Shown one piece after another: positions 15,631 to 16,491 of a stretch of 58,171 bases of DNA. The DNA comes from Planctomycetota bacterium (GTDB lineage: Bacteria; Planctomycetota; Planctomycetia; Gemmatales; Gemmataceae). The DNA lies in assembly GCA_016191165.1 (NCBI GenBank), contig JACPPF010000084.1, positions 1-58,171 of the forward strand. Direction: 5' to 3'. The translations under genes and the position numbers were made by a program. The number at the start of each line of letters is the position of its first letter. The stretch's first letter is position 1. The notes under the pieces are model-generated. The model searched no databases, had not been told where the DNA came from, and saw nothing but the letters and a program-made list of their open reading frames with translations.

Positions 15631-15695
15631 TTTCAAAGCCCCCTGCGAGCGGTAAACTTCGCTCGCGTAGGTCAGAGTGAAAGTTGATCGCAGTC

Positions 15696-15739
15696 AAAAA
15701 AAAAAACGCCGCCGCGCTGATCAGGATCAACGCGGCGGC
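15696..15739 (-). terminator. Strong intrinsic terminator of the thioredoxin-like (TGA-containing) gene
   Basis: On the minus strand GCCGCCGCG pairs with CGCGGCGGC around a further pairable centre (TTGATCC / TGATCAG-like). The stem is followed by a run of eleven T. It begins 34 bases after the stop codon at 15773. Confidence 0.95.
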
Positions 15740-15772
15740 ATGTCGCTCCATCCATCAGCCAATGAATGGGTT

Positions 15773-16336
15773 TCACTCGGACGCGGGCAGAATCTTCGGC
15801 ACGTCGGCCAAGATCTTCTCGATGGCCTTGGCGTTCAACTGGCCCTTCTTGAAGGCGTAGTTGGCTATGACTTTCCGCTTGTTGTAGAGAACGACCGTCA
15901 CGTCGGCGTCCTTGGCGACATGGTAGGCCTTGGGGCCAGCGGGGTTGTCGATCGACAACACGCAGGACTTGAGGCCTTGCTTGGTCGCAAGGGAACCGAG
16001 CGAATCGCTGAGCTTCTCGTCGTCAGAAAGGAACACGACGAAGCTGCCCATGCGGGCCTTCTTGTTCTTGGCGGTGATCACATCAATCTTCTTGACCAAA
16101 CTGGTCAAGCTGTCGGAGACTTCGCGTGCGAAGATCATCGCGACAGGGTTTCCACCGTTCTGTCAGACCAGGCAGTGCTTTTTACCGGCCTGACCGCCCG
16201 TCACGTTCAACGGGTGAAACGCTCCGGGAATGCCCTTGCCCACCTGAGGGCCCGATTTGAGGGCGTCACCCGCAGTTGCGCCGATGGTCATCAGCGCCGC
16301 AGCGGCGAATACGCCCGCAGCAATACGATACTTCAT
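15773..16336 (-). CDS. Candidate selenoprotein: exported thioredoxin-like protein with CxxU motif (in-frame TGA)
   Basis: Reading from the ATG at 16336 gives a signal peptide (MKYRIAAGVFAAAALMTIGA), then DALKSGPQVGKGIPGAFHPL, then GKKHCLV, TGA (16163-16165), QNGGNPVAMIFAREVSDS, and on in the same frame to the stop at 15773: 187 residues with codon 58 as TGA. Cys55 and codon 58 form C-x-x-U, exactly where a thioredoxin-type CxxC redox pair is expected; related planctomycete proteins, as I recall them, carry CxxC here. GGAGG lies at ideal spacing before the ATG, and a strong terminator follows the gene. This favours a functional selenoprotein over a decaying gene, but a nonsense mutation cannot be excluded. 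A clear bacterial SECIS was not identified. A conventional caller would start at the internal ATG 16138 and miss the motif. Confidence 0.75.
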
Positions 16337-16353
16337 GCAAAAACCTCCACATT

Positions 16354-16377
16354 AAAAAGGGGGTTTAGCCCACCCCC
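16354..16377 (-). promoter_or_regulatory. Terminator-like hairpin in the leader of the TGA-containing gene
   Basis: On the minus strand GGGGGT-GGGCTAA-ACCCCC is followed by TTTTT, 18 bases before the start codon. It may end transcripts coming from gatB or work as an attenuator for the redox gene. The GGAGG site lies just after it. Confidence 0.55.
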
Positions 16378-16491
16378 AGGCCTGCTCCGATGCAGTCCTT
16401 ATCCACACAGGGGTTAGCATAAGTATGGACGAGCGCAAAAGCAGCCGCATTCAAGTGATACTCAATGCCACATTCATAAGCAATGCTTATA

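Follow-up and report, generated by a model that had tools for sequence, protein, structure and literature searches.

We identified a gene for an exported thioredoxin-like protein in a bacterium of the Planctomycetota in which an in-frame UGA (UGA58) is most probably read as selenocysteine (Sec). The whole reading, i.e. an exported CxxU selenoprotein with Sec at codon 58, a downstream hairpin (P2) recruiting SelB and, less certainly, an intervening hairpin (P1) shortening the distance between UGA and P2, is given a probability of about 0.9. Nucleotide sequences show the conserved UGA/Cys pair, the Sec machinery and the covarying structures of P1 and P2, whereas SelB binding by P2, the spacer role of P1, export and redox activity are inferences. 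All coordinates refer to the window, i.e. the whole stretch of 58,171 nucleotides that was analysed.

A complete gene interrupted by a single UGA

The following features define the gene:

15773 to 16336, minus strand: candidate selenoprotein gene (exported thioredoxin-like protein) of 187 codons with codon 58 as Sec, supported by the reading frame, homologues and an AlphaFold2 model
16163 to 16165, minus strand: in-frame UGA, codon 58, proposed to be read as Sec; all TGA homologues have their TGA at this codon, and most of the remainder have TGC
16172 to 16174, minus strand: codon TGC for Cys55 of the CxxU motif, invariant in the protein alignment
16344 to 16348, minus strand: Shine-Dalgarno sequence GGAGG, 7 nt upstream of the ATG, assigned by sequence
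15706 to 15741, minus strand: intrinsic terminator 3' of the gene, strong, with 16 pairs followed by 10 T

The frame runs from the ATG at 16336-16334 to a terminal TGA at 15773-15775, and the TGA at 16163-16165 is its sole internal one. The motif reads C-L-V-U, with Cys55 and Sec58 three residues apart. This confirms the preliminary description of this DNA, which had reported one TGA within an otherwise complete frame three residues after a cysteine, and also its strong GGAGG site and strong terminator. TGA is thus used twice in the same gene, as the Sec candidate codon and as the terminal stop, and other genes in the window also end in TGA. The neighbouring genes, among them gatB and a gene for a LysR regulator, suggest no common function.

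Two further elements were observed around the gene. A minus-strand hairpin followed by five T (16359-16377) lies upstream of the ribosome site and resembles a leader terminator; attenuation is possible. On the plus strand, a 246-aa open reading frame (15677-16417) runs antisense across the entire gene, being probably a chance frame of the GC-rich reverse strand.

Homologues carry UGA or a cysteine codon at position 58

Members of the family were found in 88 of 99 related genomes, the own genome included, and the TGA form in 45 of the 99 once divergent members were added. Among close relatives with a name, most belong to the Gemmataceae or are unclassified metagenome-assembled genomes (MAGs) of Planctomycetota, several of them from lakes by isolate name. 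A covariance model of P1 and P2 recovered further members from several other planctomycete families and classes. In every TGA member the TGA stands at the codon equivalent to 58, and the remaining members examined mostly have TGC, so that the proposed alignment of homologues indeed returned Cys or TGA at this position. Since this is the only internal TGA of every TGA homologue examined, with TGC mostly taking its place elsewhere, the internal TGA is not a chance occurrence. TAG or TAA codons in some homologues were considered as further Sec codons and rejected, being terminal stops or, once, the result of a frameshift.

A quick tree requires only four changes between Sec and Cys, suggesting that the two forms mostly represent paralogues that separated long ago. 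Close relatives compared over the part beyond the UGA give dN/dS values of 0.05-0.32, showing that coding constraint persists, and strong conservation is also seen in the residues that precede the TGA. These observations bear on two other readings. The TGA might be a nonsense mutation in a Cys gene or a sequencing error: the window derives from a MAG, and a paralogue of the Cys clade (L055, G001:C17) has this very pattern, with a TGA (CLY-TGA) that may be a nonsense mutation or an assembly error and with P2 absent. However, the identical TGA occurs in dozens of genomes from separate assemblies, purifying selection continues beyond it, and the gene has a strong ribosome site, a terminator and a conserved RNA structure, making decay or error highly improbable. 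Even less credible is a shorter functional product starting at an ATG after the TGA; the corresponding frame of 121 aa (15773-16138) exists, but its product would have neither the signal peptide nor the conserved CxxC/U motif, and the part of the protein before the TGA is strongly conserved.

Several unusual members were noted. L254 is a divergent, apparently two-domain relative with the motif C-E-T-C-U, in which Sec directly follows a CxxC, and with a P2-type hairpin. L052 (G000:C171) is spread over two frames and apparently frameshifted. Cys members L193 and L202 stem from records labelled Bacteroidales and Armatimonadetes, which may reflect mislabelled or misbinned MAGs or gene transfer.

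The selenocysteine machinery is present and follows the UGA form

The genome itself encodes a tRNA-Sec with anticodon TCA (73 bits), SelB (362 bits) and SelA (560 bits), each above the cut-off. Of the four genes that the preliminary description proposed to look for (selA, selB, selC and selD), only SelD was not found in this MAG assembly, its best match there being a ThiL-type kinase by the look of its sequence. As SelD is present in six of six congeners searched, its absence is likely a gap in the assembly.

Across the 99 genomes, SelA or tRNA-Sec was found in 44 of 45 genomes with the TGA form versus 30 of 54 without it (p = 4e-7); the single exception (G022) has the TGA form, yet neither SelA nor tRNA-Sec was found. 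A clear tRNA-Sec is present in 19 of 21 genomes picked from carriers of divergent or distant members, and the other two are MAGs that are 80% and 62% complete. Together with the Cys/TGA homologues and the hairpin tracking the TGA described below, the presence of tRNA-Sec, SelA and SelB strongly supports the earlier proposal that this organism decodes UGA as Sec. An earlier paper describes selenoproteins from other planctomycetes and, for Gemmata obscuriglobus, genes for Sec insertion (PMC4807772).

Decoding of UGA as an ordinary amino acid, by a reassigned code or leaky readthrough, would equally leave the frame open, which by itself is no proof of Sec. Against this, TGA terminates other genes of the window and the present gene itself, the aligned residue is Cys, the genome encodes Sec machinery whose occurrence tracks the TGA, and both the stem and the loop of P2 are like those of a bacterial SECIS, so that we regard such decoding as very unlikely.

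In one relative (L101, 1779-3895), tRNA-Sec lies directly upstream of a Sec family member, followed by a TlpA-like gene in which an in-frame TGA gives W-U-G-P-C, with a GGUC-loop hairpin about 31 nt past this TGA. SelD is itself a UGA gene (UAGK) in many Gemmataceae (L118, L120, L122-L140); elsewhere it lies within a long open reading frame of >600 aa, which is perhaps a fusion.

P2, a candidate SECIS hairpin restricted to the UGA form

16091 to 16109, minus strand: P2, candidate SECIS hairpin, in 60 of 61 TGA versus 0 of 49 TGC homologues; supported by covariation and protein-preserving z scores

The preliminary description had found no clear bacterial SECIS. It missed P2, which is situated beyond the stretch that the canonical model covers; with this hairpin, which tracks the TGA, the weak point is resolved. 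In the homologues P2 has the form CUUGACCA-GUY-UGGUCAAG, with an 8-bp stem CUUGACCA/UGGUCAAG and a small loop, which here is GUU (16099-16101) and lies 61 nt from the UGA. The association of P2 with the TGA form yields p = 1e-30, a value that is too small because related sequences are not independent. P2 is also absent from Cys forms placed among or beside Sec forms (L167, L058 pair). In Sec genes, TTGACCAGTYTGGTCAAG, which starts 57 nt from the first base of the TGA, is conserved almost to the letter, synonymous sites included: a serine codon within it is AGT in 32 of 32 genes having Ser there, whereas Cys genes have no such conservation.

P2 is supported by covariation and by a protein-preserving control. 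Within 60 sequences, 98.5% of the P2 cells are paired, 14 cells are doubly changed compared to 2.7 in shuffles, and five pairs are altered on both sides, while the loop G is invariant (60/60). Compensatory stem changes are found in other classes of Planctomycetota, e.g. CUUCACC/GGUGAAG and CCUGGCC/GGUCAGG. In a control in which synonymous codons were resampled with the protein sequence held constant, the mean z score of P2 was -2.96 in 52 Sec genes versus -0.02 in 48 Cys genes.

Among the genome-wide matches to the P2 pattern that were examined, only this gene and one paralogue have a TGA at 57 nt. This second Sec paralogue of the own genome (contig C45, 51333-51410; L071, L109) has the motif CPVU and a P1/P2-type element with the same 57-nt spacing.

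The data suggest that P2 recruits SelB. This assignment is supported by the SelD genes of the same clade, since SelD, an unrelated family, has a GU-loop hairpin at 33 nt. In most of these SelD genes the hairpin resembles P2 in having a stem of 6-8 bp or more and a GUN loop; the difference lies in the spacing, which is canonical in SelD and 58-70 nt for P2.

P1, a hairpin between UGA and P2

16111 to 16145, minus strand: P1, intervening hairpin and proposed spacer, supported by covariation, protein-preserving z scores and the native fold

In P1, 67 cells are doubly changed, compared to 35 in shuffles, and its covariation score greatly exceeds the scores of slid versions, whereas the P1/P2 structure imposed on the Cys genes gives no excess of covariation. 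Its mean z score is -0.91 in Sec genes compared to -0.05 in Cys genes (p = 3e-4), and the native sequence folds by itself into P1 and P2 (z = -3.6). Support for P1 is clear, yet weaker than that for P2. Two hairpins named in the preliminary description can be placed on this background. Homologues do not retain the one that begins at the TGA (16142-16164). The other (16118-16136) is the distal part of the covarying P1 but not the best SECIS candidate, which is P2. A short hairpin directly after the UGA (alignment columns 10-19) was also considered and rejected, being weak and partly broken.

The distance from the UGA to the P2 loop is 58, 61 and 70 nt in 3, 61 and 4 of 68 genes, respectively. 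With P1 left out, it is 22-28 nt in most genes, with a full range of 13-42 nt; as the predicted P1 boundaries vary in several genes, this effective distance is not uniform. Four genes have nine extra bases, and in three of these P1 is predicted to be longer; P2 is retained in the three genes that are short of three bases. We therefore lean towards P1 being a spacer that shortens the effective distance, as suggested by the mostly 22-28 nt remaining without it and by the longer P1 in three of the four longer genes.

P1 could instead be the SelB-binding SECIS itself, its loop lying about 34 nt past the UGA, with P2 as an accessory element acting as pause or stabiliser. The P1 apical loop falls inside the 16-37 nt that the published model gives as canonical, and P1 covaries. 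However, its loop sequence tracks Ala-Arg codons and is replaced in several genes, and the published model wants a G within the first two loop positions, which the loop CACG of this gene does not have. It is the loop G of P2 that is invariant and P2 that follows the TGA almost perfectly, and the SelD loop is of the P2 type, not the P1 type. We consider this assignment unlikely and favour P2 as the SelB site.

A search of Rfam found no known RNA element. The strong matches of the P1/P2 covariance model that were examined all belong to this one protein family, which makes the extended element look specific to it.

A thioredoxin-like protein with a putative signal peptide

16270 to 16336, minus strand: putative signal peptide region, residues 1 to about 22, MKYRIAAGVFAAAALMTIGATAG, with a basic start and a hydrophobic core

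The AlphaFold2 model (pLDDT 89.7; residues 1-23 of low confidence) predicts a thioredoxin-like fold, in agreement with the thioredoxin-type factor postulated before. The nearest folds are thiol-disulfide oxidoreductases of the TlpA/ResA type and the thiol peroxidases Tpx, Bcp and AhpE (Z up to 16.4, rmsd 2.2-3.4 over 134-153 residues, identity 9-20%). The overall fold is shared with these enzymes but a sequence match is absent: Pfam and NCBIfam models, those of the TlpA/ResA family among them, did not match the selenoprotein, a profile comparison with a TlpA-like neighbour was negative, and a profile-sequence search of the PDB returned no credible relative. A phage homologue was looked for and not found. 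In ResA the CxxC comes after a strand, whereas by predicted secondary structure the CxxU of the selenoprotein sits before the corresponding strand, suggesting that the redox site is shifted relative to ResA.

The N-terminus suggests that the protein is exported via a signal peptide, and it is probably a periplasmic thiol-disulfide oxidoreductase or peroxidase. In having Sec as the second residue of a CxxC-type motif it resembles the known CxxU selenoproteins (SelW-like, AhpD-like, GrdA; PMC13188914), which belong to different families. A 2026 inventory lists 119 prokaryotic selenoprotein families (PMC13188914); comparison with those of them that have a Pfam or NCBIfam model gave no match.

Discussion

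In bacteria, the spacing of UGA and SECIS is regarded as near-fixed, and gene finders filter by it. The bacterial SECIS model (bSECISearch) describes a hairpin in the coding region after the UGA with a stem of 4-16 bp and a small apical loop having G first and then usually U, the loop lying 16-37 nt from the UGA for most elements, and some putative bacterial elements fall outside the model (PMC13188914). P2 agrees with the rules for stem and loop (8 bp, GUU) but not with the spacing, which is 61 nt here and 58-70 nt in the family, with a second conserved hairpin lying in between. P2 is thus found at about double the distance permitted by the textbook model, the apparent reason being that P1 folds away the extra length.

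This supports a model according to which the ribosome would read UGA58 as Sec using SelA, SelB and tRNA-Sec and would stop normally at the terminal UGA. P2, with its GU loop 61 nt after the UGA, would recruit SelB, and P1 would fold away about 35 nt, leaving an effective distance of about 26 nt, which is within the standard SECIS range.

We think it likely that the Planctomycetota possess a new two-hairpin class of SECIS, in which a SelB hairpin lies at 58-70 nt and P1 sets the distance, and that this element is used by a widespread and undescribed family of exported selenoproteins resembling thioredoxin. None of the open-access papers found describes the family, the supplementary selenoprotein table of PMC4807772 lying outside this comparison. 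As a selenoprotein, the protein represents a new family within a known kind, and the long-distance two-hairpin candidate SECIS is the more surprising part.

It is likely that genes of this family are annotated as truncated, and the family adds a selenoprotein to the Planctomycetota, a phylum with little-studied selenium use. The element breaks the linear distance rule and may keep a spatial one, raising the question whether SelB measures nucleotides or three-dimensional distance.
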